DNA from: Firmicutes bacterium AM41-11
Lineage (GTDB): Bacteria > Bacillota_I > Bacilli_A > Erysipelotrichales > Erysipelotrichaceae
Length of the DNA stretch: 64,000 bases
Assembly (NCBI GenBank): GCA_003480165.1
Contig: QUIQ01000004.1
Location: forward strand, 62,001-126,000
Direction: 5' to 3'
The notes under the pieces are model-generated. The model saw only the letters and a program-made list of their open reading frames with translations, did not search any database and was not told where the DNA came from. Numbering within the stretch: the stretch's first letter is position 1; each line of letters opens with the position of its first letter. Shown here piece after piece: positions 1,863 through 15,576 of this stretch. A program made the translations under genes and the position numbers.

Positions 1863-3518
1863 CTAATCAACAATCATATCTTCTAATGTTCCACCATTTG
1901 GAATCATAGGTAATACACGTTCTTCTTTATCAATGTTGCAGGCAATCCAAACTGGACCTTTGCACTGCAAAGCTTGTTTATAGGCTTCTTTGAATTCTTC
2001 TAAGGTATTGCATTCAAAGCCTTTGGCACCAAATCCTTCAGCGACTTTTACATAGTCAGTTTTACGATTTAATACCGTTTGGGAATAGTGTTTGTCATAG
2101 AATACAGTTTGCCATTGATAAACCATTCCTAAAACTTTGTTGTCAAGAATGATGGTAATAATTGGCAAATCATAACTTACAGCGGTACATCCTTCGTTTA
2201 AATTCATATGGAAAGAACCATCTCCGGTAAAGTGAACGACACGTTTGTCTGGATTTCCAATTTGTGCACCAATGGCAGCACCATAACCGAATCCCATCGT
2301 TCCTAATCCACCACTGGTAATAAAACGACGTGTATTATGATGTTTAACATATTGGGCAGCCCACATTTGGTGTTGACCAACATCGGTTACATAGATGGTA
2401 TCTTTATCGGTTAAATCACATGCAGCCTCAATTAAATCTTTTGGACGAAGTTTTCCTTCTAGAGGAATGCGTACCGATTTTTGATAAGCTGTTACGGTTT
2501 CAATCCATTTTTCATGTTTACTTTCTTTTAATAAAGGAAGTAAAGCTTGTAGTACATCTTTGATATCACCGATAAGACTATAGTTAATTAAAACGTTTTT
2601 ATTGATTTCACTTGCATCGATATCAATATGAATGATTGCCGCACGTTGGGCAAAACGACGTGGATTTAAAGCTACACGATCTGAGAATCTTGTACCTAAT
2701 GCGATAACAACATCCGCCTCATCAATGGCTTTATTGGCAGCAATCGTACCATGCATTCCAATTAAACCAAGGTTTTTTGGATCATCGCAATCAATGACAC
2801 CAGCAGCCATCATGGTATAGGTTGCCGGAATATCGGCTTTTTGAATTAATTCATATAATTCTTCACGCGCATCACTTGCTTCTACACCACCACCAAAATA
2901 GATGACAGGACGTTTACTTTCATTAATGATGCGGGCAATTGTTTCAATGTCTTTTTGTTTGAACTTTGGATGGGGAGCCAATGGAATTGGTTCTTGTTTT
3001 TCATATTCTATTGTAGCAGCTGTAACATCTTTTGTGATGTCTACAAGAACAGGCCCTTTTCGTCCTTCATTGGCAATTCGGAATGCATTACGTAAAGCAT
3101 CTGCTAAGTCATCAATTCGATTGACAAAGTAATTATGTTTTGTGATTGGTAGTGTCACTCCGGTAATACTAATTTCTTGGAAAGAGTCACGGCCAATAAA
3201 GCTATCTCCTACATTGCATGTGATTGCTACCATTGGTATACTATCCATATAAGCTGTAGCAATACCTGTGACAAGATTGGTAGCACCTGGTCCACTGGTA
3301 GAGAATACAACTCCGGTCTTTCCGGTTGAACGGGCAAATCCATCTGCAGCATGAGCAGCACCTTGTTCATGAGCTGTAATTATATGATGGATTTTGTCAG
3401 AGTAGTCGTATAGTGCGTCATATACATTTAACGCTGCTCCTCCAGGGTAGCCAAATACTGTGTCAACATTTTGTTCGAGTAATACTTCCATTACAATTTG
3501 TGATCCAGTTAATTTCAT
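1863..3518 (-). CDS. ilvB: Acetolactate synthase large catalytic subunit
   Basis: Thiamine-diphosphate enzyme that condenses two pyruvates (or pyruvate with 2-oxobutyrate) to acetolactate or acetohydroxybutyrate, the first common step to valine, leucine and isoleucine. The 551 residues show the N-terminal Pyr domain with the catalytic Glu51 in AHEQGAAHAADGFAR, the central FAD-binding domain and the C-terminal PP domain with GDGSFHMNLNE. The start at 3518 is preceded by AAGGAGGGTGACT; an upstream in-frame ATG at 3551 falls inside the -10 box and is rejected. The partner ilvN follows directly, which supports the biosynthetic rather than the catabolic enzyme. Confidence 0.95.
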   Translation of the reverse strand: MKLTGSQIVMEVLLEQNVDTVFGYPGGAALNVYDALYDYSDKIHHIITAHEQGAAHAADGFARSTGKTGVVFSTSGPGATNLVTGIATAYMDSIPMVAITCNVGDSFIGRDSFQEISITGVTLPITKHNYFVNRIDDLADALRNAFRIANEGRKGPVLVDITKDVTAATIEYEKQEPIPLAPHPKFKQKDIETIARIINESKRPVIYFGGGVEASDAREELYELIQKADIPATYTMMAAGVIDCDDPKNLGLIGMHGTIAANKAIDEADVVIALGTRFSDRVALNPRRFAQRAAIIHIDIDASEINKNVLINYSLIGDIKDVLQALLPLLKESKHEKWIETVTAYQKSVRIPLEGKLRPKDLIEAACDLTDKDTIYVTDVGQHQMWAAQYVKHHNTRRFITSGGLGTMGFGYGAAIGAQIGNPDKRVVHFTGDGSFHMNLNEGCTAVSYDLPIITIILDNKVLGMVYQWQTVFYDKHYSQTVLNRKTDYVKVAEGFGAKGFECNTLEEFKEAYKQALQCKGPVWIACNIDKEERVLPMIPNGGTLEDMIVD

Positions 3519-3549
3519 AGTCACCCTCCTTAAAAAATGGTTTACGACC

Positions 3550-3578
3550 ATTATAACCCTTTATTAATGTTAGCTCAA
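3550..3578 (-). promoter_or_regulatory. Sigma-A type promoter for ilvB-ilvN-ilvD
   Basis: On the minus strand TTGAGC (3573-3578), a 17-bp spacer and a perfect TATAAT (3550-3555). Transcription would start near 3543 and give a ~25-nt leader, too short for a T-box or attenuator. Regulation of this operon must therefore be by a protein or by enzyme feedback. Confidence 0.8.
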
Positions 3579-3631: not shown

Positions 3632-3660
3632 TTGAAAATTATTCATTCATCTTTTATAAT
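3632..3660 (+). promoter_or_regulatory. Promoter of the leuACDB operon
   Basis: TTGAAA (3632-3637), a 17-bp spacer and TATAAT (3655-3660). The predicted start near 3667 fits the beginning of the T-box leader that follows. It is divergent from the ilvB promoter, with about 54 bp between the two -35 boxes. Confidence 0.85.
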
Positions 3661-3666
3661 CGTTTA

Positions 3667-3877
3667 TAAATTAAGCAACGAACTGGAGTAGTACAGTGAT
3701 TGTTTTGTTCTAGCGAGCAAGTGTTTGGTGAAAACTTGTACAAACAACATTGGAACTTGTCAGGGAGCTTAACGCACCTCTGCGTTATAGAGGTTTGAGT
3801 GTTCGTGTCAATGTTGGCAGGAAAACTAAGGTGGTACCGCGTTTTTAACGTCCTTAGATGCTAAGGGCGTTTTTTTA
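3667..3877 (+). promoter_or_regulatory. Leucine T-box leader with terminator
   Basis: tRNA-sensing leader. The 3' half has the conserved T-box stretch AAGGTGGTACCGCG (to 3841), followed by a terminator hairpin at 3848-3870 and a run of seven T. In Stem I, CTG (3683-3685) pairs with CAG (3761-3763) and CAGTG (3694-3698) with CATTG (3748-3752). This leaves a specifier loop with GAGTAGTA on the 5' side and GAACTTGT on the 3' side. The specifier read here is CUU (3756-3758, followed by a purine); the overlapping UUG is also leucine. Uncharged tRNA-Leu is expected to favour the antiterminator and expression of leuACDB. The whole 3519-3896 gap is accounted for by two promoters and this leader. Confidence 0.93.
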
Positions 3878-3896
3878 TTGAAGGAGGAAAAGCGAT

Positions 3897-5570
3897 ATGG
3901 ATTACAGAAAATACGGCAAAGAATACTATTTGCCCCCAGAACCTTGTTATGATTGGGTGAAAAAAGACTGCGTAGATCACGCACCAATTTGGTGTAGTGT
4001 GGATTTGCGTGATGGTAATCAGGCATTGATTATTCCTATGAGTTTAGATGAAAAAATTAAATTCTTTAAGACTTTGGTCCAAGTAGGATTTAAGGAAATT
4101 GAAATTGGCTTCCCAGCAGCCAGTGAAACAGAATATGAATTCTGTCGTCGTTTGATTGAGGATAACTTAATTCCCGATGATGTAACGATTCAAGTCTTAA
4201 CGCAAGCTCGCGAACATATTATTCGTAAAACTTTTGAAGCTATCAAAGGTTGTAAAAGAGCTGTTGTTCATGTTTACAACTCAACAAGTGTTGCCCAACG
4301 TGAACAAGTATTTAAAAAGTCAAAAGAACAAGTCAAACAAATTGCAGTCGATGGGGCTAAGTTATTGAAAGATCTTGCGGTGGAAAGTGATTCTGAATTA
4401 ATTTTTGAATATTCACCAGAAAGTTTTACTGGAACGGAACCAGAATATGCTTTGGATGTATGTAATGCCGTTATTGATGTTTGGCAACCAACGCCAGATC
4501 ATAAAGTCATTATCAATTTACCAGTTACGGTAGAAATGAGTATGCCTCATGTCTATGCAAGTCAGGTTGAGTATATGCATAAACATATGCATAATCGTGA
4601 TTCGGTTATTTTATCTTTACATCCTCACAATGACCGTGGAACGGGAATTGCGGATACAGAATTAGGTTTATTAGCCGGAGCAGATCGTGTTGAAGGTACA
4701 TTATTTGGTAATGGAGAACGTACGGGAAACATCGATATTATTACGGTAGCTATGAATATGTATGTTCTTGGTATTGATCCAAAATTGGATTTCTCCAATA
4801 TGCCAGCCATTCGTAAAGTTTATGAAGAAGTAACACGTATGAAAGTCTATGATCGTGAACCTTATTCTGGTGATTTGGTTTATGCTGCCTTCTCTGGTAG
4901 TCACCAAGATGCGATTGCCAAAGGTTTTGCCCTTCATAAAGAACATCCAGAACATTGGAATGTACCATATTTATTAATTGATCCAGGAGATATTGGACGT
5001 AAATACGATAAAGATGTAATTCGTATCAATTCACAATCTGGTAAAGGTGGTATTGGTTTTGTTCTTCAAGAGTATTATGGATTCGATTTACCAAGAGTAT
5101 TCCGAGAAGAGTTTGGTTACTATATTAAAAACATCAGTGATCATAAACATGCCGAATTGATGCCAAATGAAGTCAAAGATATCTTTGATCGTGATTTTGT
5201 GAATTTGAAGACCCCACTTGAAGTGAATGATTATCACTTTACGCGTAATGGTCAAATTGTTAGTGCATATTTAGATGTGACATTTAATGGTGAACAATTT
5301 GATATTTCTGGAAAAGGAAATGGTCGTTTGGATGCCGTTGCGAATGCGATTCGTAAACACTTCAAGATCGACTTTGATATTGAAGATTATTCTGAACACT
5401 CCTTAAGTATTGGATCTGCTTCAAAAGCGGTAGCGTATGTACAAATGACTGATGAAGATAACGAACATCGTTTTGGTGTTGGTGTAGATGATGATATTAT
5501 CTTAGCTTCTATTTACGCACTATTCAGTGCGGTAAACCGTTATTATCGTGAAGGAAAGGGTTTAAAATAA
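3897..5570 (+). CDS. leuA: 2-Isopropylmalate synthase (long form)
   Basis: Condenses acetyl-CoA with 3-methyl-2-oxobutanoate, the committed step of leucine synthesis. The 557-residue protein has the HMGL-like TIM barrel with DLRDGNQAL (residues 36-44), HPHND near residue 242 and FGNGERTGN near residue 270, then a C-terminal LeuA dimerisation/leucine-feedback domain. The N-terminal extension and the DLRDGNQAL variant resemble the long LeuA form known from actinobacteria and fungi. The start has an AAGGAGGAAAAG site. The stop overlaps the leuC start by one base (TAATG). Controlled by the upstream leucine T-box. Confidence 0.94.
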
Positions 5571-6847
5571 TGGGAATGACAATGACGCAAAAGATTCTAG
5601 CTGCTCATGCTGGTCTAGAATCTTGTAAAGCAGGTGACTTGATTGAAGCTAAATTGGATCTGGTGATGGCTAATGACATCACTGGTCCTATGGCTTTACC
5701 AATTATTCAACAAATGGGTGGACATGTATTCGACAAAGATAAAGTCGTTTTTGTTCCGGATCATTTCACTCCAAATAAAGATATTAAAAGTGCGGAAAAC
5801 TCAAAAGCTATTTTAGATTTTTCTATTCAAGAAAAATTGACACATAAGATGGTACAAGGAAAATGTGGGGTAGAACATGCGATTTTACCAGAAAGAGGTT
5901 TAGTCTATGCTGGTCAATGTGTGATTGGTGCTGACTCACATACTTGTACATATGGTGCTTTAGGGGCTTTTTCTACTGGTGTAGGAACAACCGATATTGC
6001 TGCTGGTATGGCAACGGGTATCGCTTGGTTTAAAGTTCCAAGTGCACTGCAATTCTATTTACATGGAAAATTAAATCCTTATGTAAGTGGAAAAGATGTC
6101 ATCTTACATATAATAGGAAAGATTGGTGTTGATGGTGCCCTTTATAAATCGATGGAATTTGCTGGACCTGGTGTAAGTGAATTATCCATGGATGATCGTT
6201 TTACAATCTGTAATATGGCAATTGAGGCAGGTGCTAAAAATGGTATCTTCCCAGTTGATCAAAATGCGATTGACTATATGGAAAATGCCGGTGTGAAAGA
6301 TTATACGATTTATGAAGCAGACAAGGATGCAACGTATGAATCTATCATTGATATTGATTTATCCGAGATTCGTCCAACGGTTGCGTTCCCACATTTACCT
6401 GGTAATGCCCATACAATTGATGAAATTGAAGCAGAAGAACCAATTTATGTAGATCAAGTCGTTATTGGTTCTTGTACGAATGGTCGAATTTCTGATTTAC
6501 GAAAAGCTGCAGCCATCTTAAAAGGCCATACGGTTGCCGAAAATGTTCGTGTAATGGTTGTACCAGCTACGCAAAAGATTTTCTTACAATGTGTACACGA
6601 AGGTTTAGTGGATATTTTTGTCAATGCGGGTTGTGCTTTCAATACACCTAGCTGTGGTCCATGTATGGGTGGTCATATGGGTGTTATGGCCAATGGTGAA
6701 AAATGCTTATCTACCACAAACCGAAACTTTGTAGGACGTATGGGAGATACGAAGTCATTGATTTATTTAGCTAGTCCTGAAATTGCTGCAGCTACAGCGA
6801 TTAAAGGTTATATTGCCAATCCAGAACACATCAAAGGAGGAGAATAA
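5570..6847 (+). CDS. leuC: 3-Isopropylmalate dehydratase large subunit
   Basis: With LeuD isomerises 2-isopropylmalate to 3-isopropylmalate; an aconitase-family [4Fe-4S] enzyme. The 425-residue length is that of the shorter bacterial/archaeal LeuC type. The cluster cysteines are visible at Cys302 (GSCTNGR) and at Cys362 and Cys365 (SCGPC). The substrate-site segment [20 protein letters not shown] lies around residues 122-142. The start overlaps the leuA stop; an in-frame ATG three codons later is a possible alternative. leuD follows after 2 bp, as expected for the heterodimer. Confidence 0.95.
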
Positions 6848-9603: not shown

Positions 9604-9633
9604 AAGACAAGATGAAATAAATCATCTTGTCTT
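9604..9633 (-). terminator. Terminator hairpin for apbE
   Basis: A perfect 12-bp inverted repeat (AAGACAAGATGA/TCATCTTGTCTT) overlapping the apbE stop codon, followed on the minus strand by TCTTTTG. It stands back to back with the ilvE terminator between the convergent genes. Confidence 0.7.
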
Positions 9634-10735
9634 AATTGGATAAGCTTACCTTTTTCCGAATGGATTTTGTGGTATAGATTTTAAAGCCTTTGGTTGTGAA
9701 ATCAGCTTTTTTATTTGGTGCTTGGGCTTTATCGAAAATCCAAATTGCTTGCACCTTTTCTTTTTTAGCCAGGGCATAGCCATCTTCAAAGTTTAAAGAG
9801 AATAGAGCAGTGCTTAAACCATCGGCTTTGGTAGAATTCTTGGTAAGTACTGTTACGCTACGACATTGTTTTGCGGGCATCAAAGTATCCGGATCAATGA
9901 TATGAGAATAGCGGGTACCATTTACGGTGTAGTATCTTTGATAGTCACCACTTGTTACAATGGCTTGATTTGTTTGATCGACTTCTATATTTAATAGGGA
10001 ATCGGAACTATCTGGATTTTGTACACCGATGTTCCAATTTGATCCATCGGATTTCTTGCCAATCAATACAACATTTCCTCCCGCATTGATAAAGCCGTTA
10101 TGAAGACCTGCTTTATTGAGTTTTTCTTTGGTCAGCTGGGCTGTATATCCTTTGGCTATGCCACCTAGATCCAACATACATTGTGAATCCGTAAGGGAGA
10201 TGGTATTGCCCTGAATCTGGATTTTATCCATGCCAGTGTGTTGACTGGCTGCATTTAGTTCTTCTTGGCTGGGAAGGTTTCCACTTTTTCCTTTTTCATT
10301 TAAGGTCATGCCTTGTTCACGATAGTCATGCCAAATATTCATAACACTACCGTAACTGATATCAAATTTTGAACATACTTGATTGATCTTTATCGCATCT
10401 TTGATACATTTCATTGTCGTTTGATCAACTTCGATGAGATGATTTGCCGCTTCGTGATTGATCGTATATATATTATTGATCTTCGAATAGGCATGGTATT
10501 GATCAAAGCGTTTGTTGTTTTCTTTGAATGTGTTTTCTACGATTTTTGTGTATTTTGCGAACTCTTCATCCGTACAATCTGCTTGGAAGGTGATAGAGGT
10601 ATCAAAGCCTACATCGGTAAGGGTAATACTCTGGGTGCTGCTTTTGGATCGGGATTGAATAAAACAGACAATAGAGACCATAATTAAAAGGAAACAAAGG
10701 GATAAAATCAGCCAGCTTTTACTATTTTTTTTCAT
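9632..10735 (-). CDS. apbE: FAD:protein FMN transferase (flavinyl transferase)
   Basis: Transfers FMN from FAD to a Thr in target membrane proteins, in particular RnfG and RnfD, outside the cytoplasm. The 367-residue product has an N-terminal membrane anchor (about residues 7-27, no convincing lipobox) followed by an ApbE domain with DLGGIAKGY, NAGGNV and the ...YSHIIDPDT... segment. It is divergent from the rnf operon, whose RnfG carries SGAT, so its substrates are encoded next door. The ATG at 10735 has no Shine-Dalgarno sequence, and a TATAAT sits exactly 6 nt upstream, suggesting a leaderless mRNA; later in-frame ATGs would cut into the anchor. Confidence 0.93.
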   Translation of the reverse strand: MKKNSKSWLILSLCFLLIMVSIVCFIQSRSKSSTQSITLTDVGFDTSITFQADCTDEEFAKYTKIVENTFKENNKRFDQYHAYSKINNIYTINHEAANHLIEVDQTTMKCIKDAIKINQVCSKFDISYGSVMNIWHDYREQGMTLNEKGKSGNLPSQEELNAASQHTGMDKIQIQGNTISLTDSQCMLDLGGIAKGYTAQLTKEKLNKAGLHNGFINAGGNVVLIGKKSDGSNWNIGVQNPDSSDSLLNIEVDQTNQAIVTSGDYQRYYTVNGTRYSHIIDPDTLMPAKQCRSVTVLTKNSTKADGLSTALFSLNFEDGYALAKKEKVQAIWIFDKAQAPNKKADFTTKGFKIYTTKSIRKKVSLSN

Positions 10736-10845: not shown

Positions 10846-12138
10846 ATGTCACTATTTTTAGGATCTATGCGACAACATATTCCAGGTCGAAAAGAACTGA
10901 CAGAAAAATCTCAAGTGCTATCTTTAATGCCTAAAGAGAATGTTTACATTCCTTTGATTCATGGTCGAAGCACGGCAGATGATTTTGAAGTTTTCGTTTC
11001 CGAGGGAGATGAGGTCAAAGTTGGAACAAAACTTGCCCAAACTAAAGGAGGTTTATTTGTTCCAATCTATTCAAGTGTTTCTGGAGTTTATCGTGGAACC
11101 GCAAAAAGAATGCACAATTCAATGCGTCCACAAGTACATATGGTAATTGAACCGGATGGAAAACAAGAAACCATTCAGGCATTTGAACCAAAGGATTATA
11201 CTTCTTTAACAGAACAAGAGTGTGTTGATTTTGTCAAAGAAGCAGGAATTATTGGTTTAGGAGGTGCTGGTTTCCCTACTTATGTAAAATATGGAAAACC
11301 AGATGGAGTTCAATGTGTTCTTATCAACGCTGTTGAATGTGAACCATATATTACAGCTGATTATCGAAATGTCATGGATGATGTGGATGATTTGATTACC
11401 GGTTGTCTTATTATGAAAAAGATGGCTAAAGTTGATACGGTTTATATATGTATCAAAGAATCCCATCCTGATTTGATTGAAAAAGTAAAAGCTGCTTGTA
11501 AAGACGGTGTGCAAGTACGTCCTGTACCAGATGTATATCCAATGGGATGGGAACGTGTTCTTGTACGTGAAATCTTACATAAAGAATATGGTATGTTACC
11601 AGCTGAAGCCGGTGCTATTGTAGACAATGCGACAACAGCTATTGCCATGGCTCGTGCCTTTAGATTGGGAGAACCAATTGTACGTAAGACGATTACCGTA
11701 AGTGGTGATGGTGTAAAAAATCCAATGAACGTATCCGTTCCTGTAGGTATGCCAGTTAATGAAATTATTGAAGCATGTGGTGGATATACATGCGATAGTG
11801 TTCGTTTGATTGCTGGTGGACCTATGATGGGTAAAACGATTTTAAATGATCAATTTGTGATTGACCGTGCCATGAACGCTTTGACGATTTTAAAGCATGT
11901 TGAAGACGATGCCATTGAATGTTTACGTTGTGGACGTTGTTCCGATCATTGTCCATCTGGCTTACAACCAGTTCGTATTGCGGCTGCCGTAAAAGCCAAT
12001 GATGTCGATGAAATGATTAAACGTGGGGCATCTAGTTGTATTGAATGTGGTTTATGTACATATGTTTGTCCAAGTCATATCAATGTTACGGAAAATGTAC
12101 GTAAGGCAAAACGTGTAATTGCCTTGAAGAAGAAATAG
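10846..12138 (+). CDS. rnfC: Rnf complex subunit RnfC
   Basis: Peripheral NADH/FMN-binding subunit of the ferredoxin:NAD+ oxidoreductase that couples electron transfer to Na+ or H+ export. The 430-residue protein carries an N-terminal barrel-sandwich-like domain, the nucleotide-binding segment GLGGAGFPTYVKY, and near the C-terminus two [4Fe-4S] motifs, CLRCGRCSDHCPSG and CIECGLCTYVCPSH. First gene of rnfCDGEA-x-B, the order known from clostridial and Acetobacterium clusters. An AAGGAGAGG ribosome site is present upstream of the ATG. Confidence 0.95.
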   Translation: MSLFLGSMRQHIPGRKELTEKSQVLSLMPKENVYIPLIHGRSTADDFEVFVSEGDEVKVGTKLAQTKGGLFVPIYSSVSGVYRGTAKRMHNSMRPQVHMVIEPDGKQETIQAFEPKDYTSLTEQECVDFVKEAGIIGLGGAGFPTYVKYGKPDGVQCVLINAVECEPYITADYRNVMDDVDDLITGCLIMKKMAKVDTVYICIKESHPDLIEKVKAACKDGVQVRPVPDVYPMGWERVLVREILHKEYGMLPAEAGAIVDNATTAIAMARAFRLGEPIVRKTITVSGDGVKNPMNVSVPVGMPVNEIIEACGGYTCDSVRLIAGGPMMGKTILNDQFVIDRAMNALTILKHVEDDAIECLRCGRCSDHCPSGLQPVRIAAAVKANDVDEMIKRGASSCIECGLCTYVCPSHINVTENVRKAKRVIALKKK

Positions 12139-12149
12139 GGAGGATGAAT

Positions 12150-13301
12150 ATGAAGTTTAGTTTTCATGTGAGCCCAAGCTTAAAAGGTAATTTAACAACC
12201 AAAGAGATCATGAAAGAATTGACTCTTGGCTTATTGCTAGTATTTGTCTTGGCGGTTTTCTATTATGCAAGTGCATATGGATCTCGTTATGCACTTCAAG
12301 CGATTCTTTTATTAGTTTGTTCATTAGTCACAACTCTTGTTTGTGAATTCTTATTTGCGAAAATTCGTAAAAGAGATCCTAAAAAAGAAATTCAAAATTC
12401 ATTTGGATGGGTAACAGCTATTATCTTGACGTTAATGGTTCCTATTTCAACACGTCCATATGCTTTGATTATTTCTACAGCTTTCGCAATTATCTTCGGT
12501 AAGATGTTATTTGGTGGTTTTGGCCATAATATCTTTAACCCTGCAGCTGTTGGTCGTGCCGTTATCTTTGCGACATTTACTGGTGCTTCTACAAATTTAG
12601 TAACAAGTGCTACACCAACTGCTTTAATTGCCAATTCTTATGGATGGGTTCCTGCCAATGCTGATGCTTTGGATGGCTTCCTTTCTCAAGTAGGTGGATG
12701 GTCTAGCTTATTTTTAGGAACATATCCTGGAGCTTTAGGCGAAACCTTTACAATTGCGATTGTCTTAATTGGTATTTTCTTAATTGTTCGTAAGATTATT
12801 GACTGGCGTGTTCCAGTTGTATATTTAGGTACGATCTTTGTGATGACGGCAATTGTTGCCATTATTACCGGTGTTGGATCTTACCATGGTATTCCAGGCT
12901 TTATTTGGTATCCTGTACTTCATCTTATTTTAGGTGGTGTTGTTTTTGGAGCCTTCTTTATGTTGACCGATCCTGTTACAAGTCCTACAAGTGCAGCTGG
13001 TCGTACGATCTTTGCCTTGGGTGCTGGAATCTTAACAGTATTGATTCGTTTAACAGGTAACTTACCTGAAGGTTGTTTATATTCTATCTTATTGATGAAT
13101 ATGATGACGCCATTAATTGAATCTTTATTAGATGGAAAACAATTAGATATCTTAAAGAAAGCAAAACATGGTTTCATCTACTTAGCTTTAGTTGGCTTAG
13201 CTATTACGATTTTTGCCGCTTGCTCTGTACATCCTGTTTCAAATCCAAAGGGTGAAAAAGAAGCAAAAGTTGTTGAAAATGTGGAGGTGAATGTTCTATG
13301 A
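12150..13301 (+). CDS. rnfD: Rnf complex subunit RnfD (flavinylated membrane protein)
   Basis: Integral membrane subunit with about ten helices, thought to carry covalent FMN and form part of the ion path. The 383-residue product has the conserved FGGFGHNIFNPAAVGRA segment and TSATPT around residues 152-157, matching the position of the flavinylated Thr of the NqrB/RnfD family (Thr155 in this numbering). The start is placed at 12150 because GGGAGG (12138-12143) is 6 nt from that ATG, while the ATG at 12144 directly abuts it. Overlaps rnfG by 4 nt. Confidence 0.93.
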   Translation: MKFSFHVSPSLKGNLTTKEIMKELTLGLLLVFVLAVFYYASAYGSRYALQAILLLVCSLVTTLVCEFLFAKIRKRDPKKEIQNSFGWVTAIILTLMVPISTRPYALIISTAFAIIFGKMLFGGFGHNIFNPAAVGRAVIFATFTGASTNLVTSATPTALIANSYGWVPANADALDGFLSQVGGWSSLFLGTYPGALGETFTIAIVLIGIFLIVRKIIDWRVPVVYLGTIFVMTAIVAIITGVGSYHGIPGFIWYPVLHLILGGVVFGAFFMLTDPVTSPTSAAGRTIFALGAGILTVLIRLTGNLPEGCLYSILLMNMMTPLIESLLDGKQLDILKKAKHGFIYLALVGLAITIFAACSVHPVSNPKGEKEAKVVENVEVNVL

Positions 13302-13813
13302 ACAAGATCTTACATTTAACGATTTTCTTAGCAATTATTTCTGCAATTGCTGGTGGAGCATTGGCTTTTGCCAATAACTTGACAGCTCCTGTTATTGCGG
13401 AAAACGAATTGAAACAAGAACAAGAATCTTTGCAAAAAATGTATAAGTCAGCAGCTTTAGACGATTTTAAACAAGTGAAGTTTACGGAAGATTCTAAAAC
13501 TGTGCAAAAGGTTTATTCTTATAAAGACTTTTATATCTTTAATATGTCTGTATCTGGATATAAGGATGGAACAACTTTCTTAGTATCTATTAATAAAGAT
13601 ACAGGTGTTGTTGATAAGTATTTAGCTTTATCTAATGGAGATACAAAAGGTTTAGGTTCAAAAGTTATGGATAGTCCTTTCCGTAAGAGCATTGAAGGAA
13701 AGAAAGCTTCTGATCATTTAGATACGATTTCCGGAGCAACCATTTCTTCGAGTGCTGTAACGGCAGGTATTAATGAAGCTGCTGGTTACGTAGATGAGTT
13801 GAAAGGAGAATAG
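13298..13813 (+). CDS. rnfG: Rnf complex subunit RnfG (FMN-binding)
   Basis: Membrane-anchored subunit with one N-terminal helix (about residues 5-27) and an external FMN-binding domain. The flavinylation motif SGAT is at residues 145-148, with Thr148 the expected FMN-phosphoester site for ApbE. Length of 171 residues is a little short for the family (commonly 180-210). ATG overlaps the rnfD stop (ATGA), and rnfE follows after 2 bp. Confidence 0.94.
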   Translation: MNKILHLTIFLAIISAIAGGALAFANNLTAPVIAENELKQEQESLQKMYKSAALDDFKQVKFTEDSKTVQKVYSYKDFYIFNMSVSGYKDGTTFLVSINKDTGVVDKYLALSNGDTKGLGSKVMDSPFRKSIEGKKASDHLDTISGATISSSAVTAGINEAAGYVDELKGE

Positions 13814-13815
13814 AT

Positions 13816-14475
13816 ATGTCAAAATTTCAAAGTTTTAAAAATGGATTATTGAAAGAAAATCCAGTATTCTCTTTATTCTTAGGTATTTGTTCGACTTTAG
13901 CAATCACTACAACAGTAGATAATGCGATTGGTATGGGTATTGCGGTAATTGTTGTCTTGATTATGTCAAACGTAATTATTTCTTTATTACGTAATATCAT
14001 TCCAGATGAAGTACATATTCCGGTATATATCGTTATTATTGCGACATTGGTTAAAATTGTTCAAATGTTGATTGCAGCCTATGCGCCTGCATTAAATACC
14101 AGTCTTGGTGTATTTATTCCATTGATCGTTGTTAACTGTATTATCTTAGGTCGTGCCGAAGCTTATGCGTGCAACCATAATCCTATGGATGCTGCATTAG
14201 ATGGTTTAGGTATGGGTTGTGGATATACATTAGCTGTATTATCTATGAGTTTTATTCGTGAAGTAATCTCTACGGGAGGCTTTAAAGTTTCTAACCCATT
14301 TAATACAAGCCAGGTTTTCTTGAATGTACATATTATCCCAAGTAATTTTACTATCAGCATGTTCTCTTCAGCTGTAGGTGCTTTCTTAACTTTCGCTATG
14401 TTGGCAGCCTTTGTTGGATGGTATAAAGATCGTGCTGCGAAAAAAGAAGCAGAAGCTGCTAAGGAGGGAAAATAG
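13816..14475 (+). CDS. rnfE: Rnf complex subunit RnfE
   Basis: Integral membrane subunit of the RnfA/RnfE (NqrD/NqrE) family. The two proteins form inverted-topology partners holding an Fe-S cluster and the ion channel. The 219-residue product has about six hydrophobic segments, the NPVFSLFLGICS N-terminus, and PLIVVNCIILGRAEAYA in the middle, with the conserved Cys residues of the family. The C-terminus is charged (lysine/glutamate/alanine-rich). Spaced 2 bp from rnfG and 3 bp from rnfA. Confidence 0.94.
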   Translation: MSKFQSFKNGLLKENPVFSLFLGICSTLAITTTVDNAIGMGIAVIVVLIMSNVIISLLRNIIPDEVHIPVYIVIIATLVKIVQMLIAAYAPALNTSLGVFIPLIVVNCIILGRAEAYACNHNPMDAALDGLGMGCGYTLAVLSMSFIREVISTGGFKVSNPFNTSQVFLNVHIIPSNFTISMFSSAVGAFLTFAMLAAFVGWYKDRAAKKEAEAAKEGK

Positions 14476-14478
14476 TTT

Positions 14479-15054
14479 ATGTCTGAATTATTTGGCTTAT
14501 TATTTACCAGCTTAATTGTTAATAACGTTATCTTAACCCAGTTCTTAGGTATGTGCCCATTCATGGGTGTTTCGAAAAAACGTACTAGTGCATTAGGTAT
14601 GGGTGTTGCCGTTGTCTTTGTTATCGTTGCCGCATCTATTATTACATTTGGTTTATATTATCTTGTCCTTGTTCCTTTGAAATTGGAATTTATGGATTTG
14701 ATTACCTTTATTCTAGTTATCGCGTCTTTGGTACAATTAACGGAAATGTTTATTAAAAAGACAAGTCCTGCTCTATATAAGAGTTTAGGTGTTTATCTTC
14801 CTTTGATTACTACAAACTGCGTTGTATTAAATGTATGTTTAGTAAATATTCAAAATGGATATGATTTTGCGCACATGATTATGTATTCTGTTGGTACACC
14901 AATGGGATTTGCCCTTGTTCTTTATATTTTCTCTACAATTCGTGAACGTTTGGAATTAAGCGATGTTCCAGAATTCTTTAAGGGAAATCCAATTGCCTTG
15001 GTTGTAGCAGCTATTATGTCTATGGCCTTTACTGCCTTTGCGGGAGTTATTTAA
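14479..15054 (+). CDS. rnfA: Rnf complex subunit RnfA
   Basis: Integral membrane subunit paired with RnfE. The 191-residue length is standard. It shows the family N-terminus NNVILTQFLGMCPFMGVSKK and PLITTNCVVLNVCLVN in the middle, both with conserved Cys, and six hydrophobic segments. AAGGAGGGAAAATAGTTT provides the ribosome site. Its stop overlaps the start of a 58-codon Cys-rich gene (TAATG), so the operon does not go straight to rnfB as it usually does. Confidence 0.94.
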   Translation: MSELFGLLFTSLIVNNVILTQFLGMCPFMGVSKKRTSALGMGVAVVFVIVAASIITFGLYYLVLVPLKLEFMDLITFILVIASLVQLTEMFIKKTSPALYKSLGVYLPLITTNCVVLNVCLVNIQNGYDFAHMIMYSVGTPMGFALVLYIFSTIRERLELSDVPEFFKGNPIALVVAAIMSMAFTAFAGVI

Positions 15055-15230
15055 TGTTTCGAATTCTTGCAGCTATACTGTTTGTTGGCGCATTGATTGG
15101 CATTTATATTTGGGCTTATTTAAATAACAAAAAAACCCCTGTTCCAAAAGGGTGTGAAAATTTAAAAACAGACTGTGATGGATGTAAACTGGTTTCTTGC
15201 TCTTTACATCCAGATCACGATAAAAAGTAG
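15054..15230 (+). CDS. Small Cys-rich single-pass membrane protein inside the rnf operon
   Basis: A 58-residue product that I do not recognise. It has one hydrophobic helix at about residues 4-22, a short basic linker, and a C-terminal tail with four cysteines (Cys34, Cys41, Cys44, Cys49) and two histidines (52, 55). The ATG overlaps the rnfA stop (TAATG) and is preceded by GGGAG with 7-nt spacing (15042-15046). rnfB starts 10 bp after its stop. The helix-then-cysteines layout resembles the beginning of RnfB itself, so an Fe-S or thiol role in the Rnf complex is possible, but that is inference. The spacing is not a textbook [4Fe-4S] motif. Confidence 0.8.
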   Translation: MFRILAAILFVGALIGIYIWAYLNNKKTPVPKGCENLKTDCDGCKLVSCSLHPDHDKK

Positions 15231-15240
15231 GAGGAATACA

Positions 15241-15546
15241 ATGATTGCAGCAATCGTAATGATGCTTGTTCTTGGTGGTCTTCTTGGTTTGGGATTAGGA
15301 ATTGCTGATTCTAAATTAAAGGTTGAAGTGGATGAACGAGTTGAACATGTAACGGGCATGCTTCCTGGTTATAACTGTGGAGGTTGTGGTTACCCTGGTT
15401 GTTCTGGATTTGCAGAAGGCATGGTTTCTGGAGAAACAAATCAATTCTTATGTAAACCAACAAAACCAGATCAAAAAGCTAAAATTATCCAATATTTAAA
15501 AGAAACCCCAGGTCCTGATGGTAGTACCATCGATATTAAAGGGTAA
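15241..15546 (+). CDS. rnfB: Truncated RnfB: membrane and first Fe-S segment only
   Basis: RnfB normally takes electrons from soluble ferredoxin through C-terminal ferredoxin-type domains. Here the product is 101 residues: a hydrophobic N-terminus (1-21) and the RnfB-type motif CGGCGYPGC...C (Cys46, 49, 54, 71), then a polar tail. The ferredoxin domains of usual RnfB (roughly 180 residues or more) are absent. The stop is followed at once by a strong terminator, and I see no cysteine-motif sequence in another frame, so this is a short gene and not a frameshift. Start ATG at 15241 has AGGAGGAATACA upstream; an in-frame ATG at 15175 would overlap the small Cys-rich gene. Confidence 0.88.
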   Translation: MIAAIVMMLVLGGLLGLGLGIADSKLKVEVDERVEHVTGMLPGYNCGGCGYPGCSGFAEGMVSGETNQFLCKPTKPDQKAKIIQYLKETPGPDGSTIDIKG

Positions 15547-15548
15547 TG

Positions 15549-15576
15549 AAAAAGTCGGCTGTTAAGCCGGCTTTTT
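15549..15576. terminator. Bidirectional terminator between rnfB and rqcH
   Basis: A 12-bp inverted repeat (AAAAAGTCGGCT/AGCCGGCTTTTT, one G-T pair) with a GTTA loop. The terminal A/T runs give a U-tract in both directions. It ends the rnf operon and overlaps the rqcH stop codon on the other strand. Confidence 0.92.

Follow-up and report, generated by a model that had tools for sequence, protein, structure and literature searches.

For many anaerobes the Rnf complex is one of the main enzymes of energy conservation, and the ferredoxin-accepting module of its RnfB subunit is regarded as the electron input. In the canonical complexes of Acetobacterium woodii, Clostridium tetanomorphum and Azotobacter vinelandii, RnfB consists of a transmembrane (TM) helix, a relay domain and a C-terminal cluster module; the solved modules contain 2-7 clusters according to the available part of PMC12174285. 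In the related Na+-translocating NADH:quinone oxidoreductase (Na+-NQR), the core subunits B-C-D-E are homologous to D-G-E-A of Rnf, and a small membrane protein, NqrM, is encoded together with the structural genes. Here we describe an rnf operon of Firmicutes bacterium AM41-11, located on a stretch of 64,000 nucleotides (assembly GCA_003480165.1, contig QUIQ01000004.1, positions 62,001 to 126,000 of the forward strand), which is called the window below and whose closest kin is Faecalitalea (Erysipelotrichaceae). Like canonical Rnf, this type has the subunits C, D, G, E and A, the ligands of the RnfA/E [2Fe-2S] cluster, the RnfC clusters and the RnfB helix and relay domain; unlike canonical Rnf, its RnfB is short and has no C-terminal cluster module. 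It also differs in having, usually, an extra small gene, and an RnfD mostly with an additional helix and often with flavin mononucleotide (FMN) domains. In contrast to Na+-NQR it has no NqrF, its RnfC retains the clusters, and its small protein does not match the NqrM family PF04400. The pump with a short RnfB is a new Rnf variant.

The genes are arranged in the order rnfC, rnfD, rnfG, rnfE, rnfA, a 58-codon gene and rnfB, all on the forward strand at positions 10846-15546. rnfA (14479-15054) encodes 191 amino acids with the ligands Cys26 and Cys114. The ATG of the small gene (15054-15230) overlaps the stop codon of rnfA by one base, and its product of 58 amino acids has a TM helix at residues 2-26 followed by the motif C-x6-C-x2-C-x4-C (Cys34/41/44/49) on the predicted cytosolic side. 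An AGGAGG ribosome-binding site at 15229-15234 precedes rnfB (15241-15546), which encodes only 101 amino acids, with a TM helix at residues 2-26 and one 4Fe-4S domain (Cys46/49/54/71). Three bases past the rnfB stop begins a terminator-like hairpin with a 12-pair stem and a T run (15549-15576). An earlier note on this DNA had described the same anatomy, including the one-base overlap, the ribosome-binding site and the terminator directly past rnfB; the coordinates were read again and agreed with it.

RnfC, RnfD and RnfA pass the NCBIfam cut-offs for members of the complex, and RnfE passes a Rnf/Rsx model (NF009070). RnfC (10846-12138; 430 amino acids) has an FMN/NADH domain, an SLBB domain and two 4Fe-4S motifs and scored 349 bits with TIGR01945 (cut-off 245.95), with all eight cluster cysteines conserved in the alignment columns. 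RnfD (12144-13301; 385 amino acids; TIGR01946, 211.4 bits against 207.05) comprises the core and an additional C-terminal hydrophobic helix at residues 343-360 (13170-13223, limits set by eye). RnfA scored 245.7 bits with TIGR01943 (cut-off 229.3). RnfE (13816-14475; 219 amino acids; PF02508; ligands Cys25 and Cys108) reached 243.3 bits with NF009070 (cut-off 184) and 212.8 bits with TIGR01948, marginally below the cut-off of 213.4. For comparison, the ligand numbers of RnfA/E in A. woodii were consulted. RnfG (13298-13813; 171 amino acids) has a single FMN_bind domain; as it passes PF04205 (48.1 bits, cut-off 22) though not TIGR01947 (59.2 of 102 bits), it is divergent and not absent. The cysteine ligands of the RnfA/E [2Fe-2S] cluster and of the two [4Fe-4S] clusters of RnfC are all kept. 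The motif C-x2-C-x2-C-x3-C is present twice in RnfC and in no other open reading frame (ORF) of the window, a third match being broken by stops.

The short RnfB carries PF04060 as its sole Pfam domain (48.2 bits, cut-off 23), as do 39 of 39 short members examined, and it scored below TIGR01944, the model for full-length RnfB (60.9 of 68.7 bits). The TM helix and PF04060 with its four cysteines are present and the C-terminal ferredoxin-type module is not, in agreement with the earlier note that the ferredoxin-accepting part is missing. The structure model (pLDDT 92.3) has a TM helix and a compact domain. Short RnfB is predicted to be a single TM helix with one complete [4Fe-4S] domain, the predicted counterpart of the B8 relay domain of A. 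woodii, which passes electrons to the RnfA/E cluster. Over 54-57 residues the predicted domain may share the fold of the N-terminal [4Fe-4S] domain of the corrinoid iron-sulfur protein (CFeSP), to which it has a weak sequence match; unlike RnfB, CFeSP is soluble and has a corrinoid-binding part. The N-terminal domain of CFeSP takes electrons from ferredoxin or carbon monoxide dehydrogenase to reactivate the corrinoid. A protein search admitting only lengths of about 56-176 amino acids returned 441 homologues of the short RnfB, the 120 listed being 88-124 amino acids long; the source databases label the protein '(Fe-S)-binding protein' or 'electron transporter RnfB'. The four RnfB cysteines and the RnfA/E ligands were invariant or nearly so in the alignments, and in eight pairs with the window the proportion of nonsynonymous differences (pN) in rnfB was well below that of synonymous differences (pS).

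Related loci were collected by a contig scan from which the best 80 of 577 confirmed places were kept, so that the sample is biased to close kin. RnfB was short (71-108 amino acids) in 56 of these loci and long (249-318 amino acids) in 24; one short locus (L049) is cut by a contig end, two long loci are cut or open at one, and the lengths shift a little because the choice of start varies slightly between readings. Among the short loci rnfA was readable in 55, and 54 of these have a small ORF of 38-75 amino acids with a C-x2-C-x4-C core between rnfA and rnfB, L044 being the exception. In the long loci the two genes are separated by 11-131 bases, except in L062 (358 bases) and apart from L068, which has no readable rnfA, and the small-protein profile found no match in the genomes of these 24 loci.

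Among 196 genomes from the order to which Holdemanella biformis belongs, Erysipelotrichales, PF04060 was found in 161. Twenty stretches of this order were fetched, and the 14 that were picked for frames of 260-298 amino acids all encode an RnfB of 257-268 amino acids with three ferredoxin motifs; in none of them does the small gene separate rnfA from rnfB. Three others (L098-L100) are of the short type, each with the small gene. L097 and L101 were not RnfB, and L102 was hydrogenase-like: its protein of 396 amino acids (2385-3575, reverse strand) has an N-terminal Fer4 domain, a Fe_hyd_lg_C match and a C-terminal PF04060. With five further loci included, the gene pair of the window, which the earlier note had suggested looking for, recurred in related genomes: 58 of the 60 short-type loci whose rnfA could be read have the small gene between it and the short rnfB. 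A genome-wide search of 56 hand-chosen genomes detected the small protein in all 32 with a short RnfB, in one of 14 with a long RnfB and in none of ten lacking PF04060. It was absent from 37 of 38 genomes with a long RnfB (24 from the survey and 14 of the same order). Genome G206 has two rnf operons (L035, and L108 at 1220-2880 on the reverse strand), each with rnfA, the small gene and a short rnfB. One short-type operon (L037) lies on a contig labelled Leptotrichiaceae (Fusobacteriota), which points to gene transfer or to a mislabelled metagenome-assembled genome.

Phylogenetic trees were calculated after removal of rows whose similarity exceeded a threshold, which reduced the alignment of RnfA+E+D+C from 83 to 72 rows; the counts for the other trees are likewise those after removal. 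L035 and L071 were left out of all trees, as RnfA had been read in the place of RnfE. In the RnfA+E+D+C tree 43 short and 29 long types were split by one branch. With Escherichia coli as the outgroup, the 40 short types among the 63 rows of the RnfA+E+D tree formed one clade (support 100/98), and the long-type loci of the order grouped with Clostridia. The short clade was also recovered with RnfA+E (55 rows, 38 of them short, including L108 and L110; support 99/97). Bootstrap values for it are 99-100. Rooted on E. coli, this tree placed it within the long types, with backbone supports of 98/60 to 94/81, and such nesting fits a loss of the module. No full-length RnfB, which the earlier note had named as a finding that would speak against it, occurred at the locus inside the clade; the full-length RnfB proteins of the same order sit in the other clade. 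L044 and L110 branched near the base on long branches at an unresolved fork, and the small protein of the deepest row, L014, has no first cysteine. The small gene may have been gained after the truncation of RnfB, or may have been lost twice.

The fate of the module was followed with the C-terminal 185 amino acids of a Lachnospiraceae RnfB as the query. All 14 long-RnfB genomes gave a match over almost the whole query (E 3.5e-72 to 2.7e-56). From the 32 genomes with a short RnfB came partial ferredoxin-type matches only, the best at 1e-10; in 26 of these genomes such matches reached E <= 1e-5. The two longest of the partial matches were considered and rejected. That of G018 (query 12-158) is a frame of 456 amino acids on the rnf contig, RnfC by its size, and that of G007 (query 65-185) is a protein of 124 amino acids with four ferredoxin motifs (L109, 2682-3056, in the genome of L015), which adjoins a gene that by eye resembles aldehyde ferredoxin oxidoreductase; neither was taken as RnfB. 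No ORF with a ferredoxin motif was found within 3 kb past rnfB at the 56 short loci, where three motif matches fell in frames of 19-41 codons. A second full-length RnfB was not seen in 18 short-RnfB genomes, leaving aside the frames of 434 amino acids in G015 and 579 amino acids in G006. The PF04060 frames of about 400 and 560 amino acids are, in the cases present in both lists (e.g. G010, G014 and G018; one was scanned), PF02906 frames as well, and the third PF04060 match of G006 is a second short RnfB. Judged by these searches, the C-terminal module of RnfB is lost, neither moved nor split off; the separate RnfB-type ferredoxin module that the earlier note proposed to seek elsewhere in the genome was not found in the 32 relatives.

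The small ORF has 54 relatives within the 80 loci, and its cysteine pattern is preserved. The full motif C-x6-C-x2-C-x4-C occurs in 46 of them and a C-x5 or C-x8 variant in six. An N-terminal hydrophobic stretch was recognized by eye in all except L025, whose ORF of 38 amino acids as read lacks most of it. pN was lower than pS in 17 of 17 pairs (0.15 and 0.73 for the window and L001, 0.04 and 0.62 for L016 and L020), L024 and L032 being too similar to judge (0.01 and 0.03). By its relatives, its conserved cysteines and this pattern of substitutions the small ORF is a real gene. Lysines past the helix suggest, by the positive-inside rule, that the cysteine tail is cytosolic. Searches of the window protein against Pfam and NCBIfam gave no family over its curated cut-off, and comparison with solved structures gave nothing convincing (best E 0.56). 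In layout it resembles the FeoB-associated Cys-rich membrane proteins (PF12669), which are also short and have one TM helix followed by a cysteine cluster; in contrast to these, the window protein is below the family cut-off (17.1 bits, cut-off 27) and encoded with rnf genes. Of 39 members, 18 matched this family weakly, the best with E 0.00026. The small protein probably binds iron or an Fe-S centre.

The short type also differs in its flavin-bearing subunits. By a crude test, the additional C-terminal hydrophobic helix of RnfD was present in 40 of 52 short loci versus 2 of 35 long ones, some misses being due to a misplaced anchor motif and two loci having no motif. Extra FMN-binding domains on RnfD, RnfG or RnfE were counted in 28 of 54 short-type and 2 of 35 long loci, six loci without a readable D, G or E being omitted; a Pfam check of ten long subunits confirmed clear extra FMN domains in five. 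The window, which is among the 54 and not among the 28, has the RnfD helix and no extra FMN domain on RnfD, RnfG or RnfE. In short-RnfB relatives FMN_bind is fused to the C-terminus of RnfD or RnfE, and RnfG carries three or four FMN_bind domains (L006, 5855-7621 and 8157-9215; L017, 7283-8569; L050, 6913-8559). Multi-flavinylated RnfG is known, and a second path to extracytosolic acceptors has been suggested for it in the portion of PMC8238504 at hand; fusions to RnfD or RnfE were not met in the available portions of PMC8238504 and PMC11334425.

Frames of 1170-1248 amino acids with a POR domain, the size of pyruvate:ferredoxin oxidoreductase (PFOR), were found in all 32 short-RnfB genomes; PF01558 was present in every one of the 14 genomes with a long RnfB and in five of the ten lacking PF04060. 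[FeFe] hydrogenase domains occurred in 30 of 32 short-RnfB genomes, 10 of 14 long-RnfB genomes and 4 of 10 without PF04060. Ferredoxin-type matches were obtained in 32 of 32 short-RnfB genomes, seven over the family cut-off and many inside larger proteins. With PFOR-sized and ferredoxin-type proteins present, reduced ferredoxin is probably made and available. We lean, with modest confidence, towards an Rnf-type pump (RnfCDGEA, cluster ligands kept) with a minimal electron-input subunit that is fed directly by soluble ferredoxin. PFOR would reduce soluble ferredoxin, which would dock straight onto the exposed relay domain of RnfB; this domain would swing to the RnfA/E [2Fe-2S] cluster, and the electrons would move across to the RnfG and RnfD flavins, then back via RnfC to NAD+, driving ion export. 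A precedent for docking of this kind would be the CFeSP domain, which ferredoxin reduces and whose fold may be the same. The cysteine tail of the small protein would lie at the cytosolic membrane surface and act beside RnfB. That this protein is a docking partner or relay is a tentative proposal, made a little more cautiously after a second locus without the small gene was found.

Several observations weigh against direct feeding by ferredoxin or against a part for the small protein in it. It is from gene content alone that we infer ferredoxin as the donor, and no biochemistry on an Rnf of the short type was found. A Foldseek search of the RnfB model against the PDB gave no match under E 0.001, and the best Z of a VIA-align comparison, 8.5, is barely over the background level stated for the tool; RnfB chains were also missing among the 50 PDB rows listed by Foldseek, which is not evidence for a different fold. 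The RnfB tail carries a mean charge of +1.0 (range -3 to +5), too weak to be an argument for docking. In the model of the small protein helix 2-26 has high and the cysteine tail low confidence (about 60), and the first cysteine is missing in two of the 54 proteins. The second rnf operon of G006 (L110, 253-1796) consists of rnfE, rnfA and an RnfB of 101 amino acids overlapping rnfA by one base, without the small gene, whose sole copy in this genome sits in the other operon, L014. L044 (about 3640-3960) has a short RnfB and belongs to the clade, and the small gene is nowhere in its genome. As both loci lack the gene between rnfA and rnfB and branch near the base, the small protein may not be obligatory. 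Conversely, G157, with a full-length RnfB, has an orphan small gene (ending at 6291, forward strand, in L103) next to a divergent apbE (4910-6007, reverse strand), with no rnf genes in the fetched 10 kb. Finally, as the short type arose once, the co-occurrence of small gene and short RnfB amounts to one event and its inheritance.

The earlier note had suggested that electrons may enter differently, perhaps through the two clusters of RnfC, the small protein or a separate ferredoxin. A different entry is supported, and a separate ferredoxin and the small protein, together or singly, fit the ferredoxin-like and PFOR-sized proteins and the 58 of 60 loci. Entry through RnfC is unlikely, because in known Rnf complexes RnfC serves the NAD side, and its clusters are far from those of RnfB, more than 30 Å in A. 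woodii by the accessible text of PMC11889175. Among the roles of the small protein the note had omitted an NqrM-like assembly factor, which would give iron or a cluster to the [2Fe-2S] site of RnfA/E and leave the short RnfB alone as the entry. We consider this possible and on balance doubtful; it ranks a close second. The layout of one TM helix followed by cysteines is that of NqrM, the weak FeoB-associated similarity of 18 members would suit such a role, and so would the orphan copy beside apbE and the single copy for two operons in G006. In Vibrio cholerae, according to the part of PMC12174285 available, nqrM is transcribed together with the structural genes of nqr, and the [2Fe-2S] cluster seems to depend on it. 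Against a maturation factor stand its absence from 37 of 38 long-RnfB genomes, whose loci share the RnfA/E ligands, and from the genome of L044. Identity with NqrM by profile was rejected: PF04400 gave no match at E <= 1 in 39 members and was over its cut-off in none of eight genomes (five with a short RnfB), although the control genomes did not pass either.

Alternatively, RnfC could take in NADH, and the flavins of RnfD and RnfG could pass the electrons on to extracytoplasmic acceptors; RnfB would then have been cut down because little or no current runs through it. The frequent extra FMN domains of the short type and the second path proposed in PMC8238504, as far as that text was available, speak for this outward route; we nevertheless think it improbable, given that the window subunits have no such domain by the same test, that the RnfB cysteines and RnfA/E ligands are invariant or nearly so, and that a PFOR-sized protein occurs in every short-RnfB genome. 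Decay of RnfB with loss of function would agree with the loss of an entire domain and is very hard to reconcile with 56 short loci, a deep clade, invariant ligands, a compact predicted domain and a pN well below pS. A sequencing or assembly error, raised in the earlier note as what might undo the finding, is scarcely conceivable in view of the 441 homologues of similar length, the 56 short loci among 80, the hairpin past the stop and the lack of the module in 32 relatives. Beyond direct feeding by ferredoxin, a broader scheme was considered: a third Rnf/Nqr architecture, where untethered soluble ferredoxin is received by a bare relay domain, usually paired with a Cys-rich membrane subunit, and FMN domains on RnfD, RnfG or RnfE in many lineages can branch electrons outward. 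As a whole we hold this to be rather unlikely.

Upstream of the operon and divergent from rnfC lies apbE (9632-10735, reverse strand; PF02424, 237.8 bits), whose putative product, an FAD:protein FMN transferase, would flavinylate RnfD and RnfG. In L015 (10379-12573) and L037 (10307-12421) rnfB is followed by apbE (PF02424), a NusG domain II gene (PF07009) and a PF07456 gene resembling component I of heptaprenyl diphosphate synthase.

No description of an Rnf variant with a short RnfB was found in the accessible parts of the open-licence literature. A clade of gut bacteria dispenses with the module and so offers a natural deletion variant in which to test what minimal set ferredoxin-driven pumping needs. 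Annotation should accommodate the short RnfB, which misses the TIGR01944 cut-off. The finding also bears on the origin of NQR from RNF through exchange of the input subunit, as put forward in the consulted portion of PMC4014512. If the third architecture is true, the short type would offer a present-day counterpart to the transition proposed from RNF to NQR, during which RnfB was lost as the input and replaced by another.
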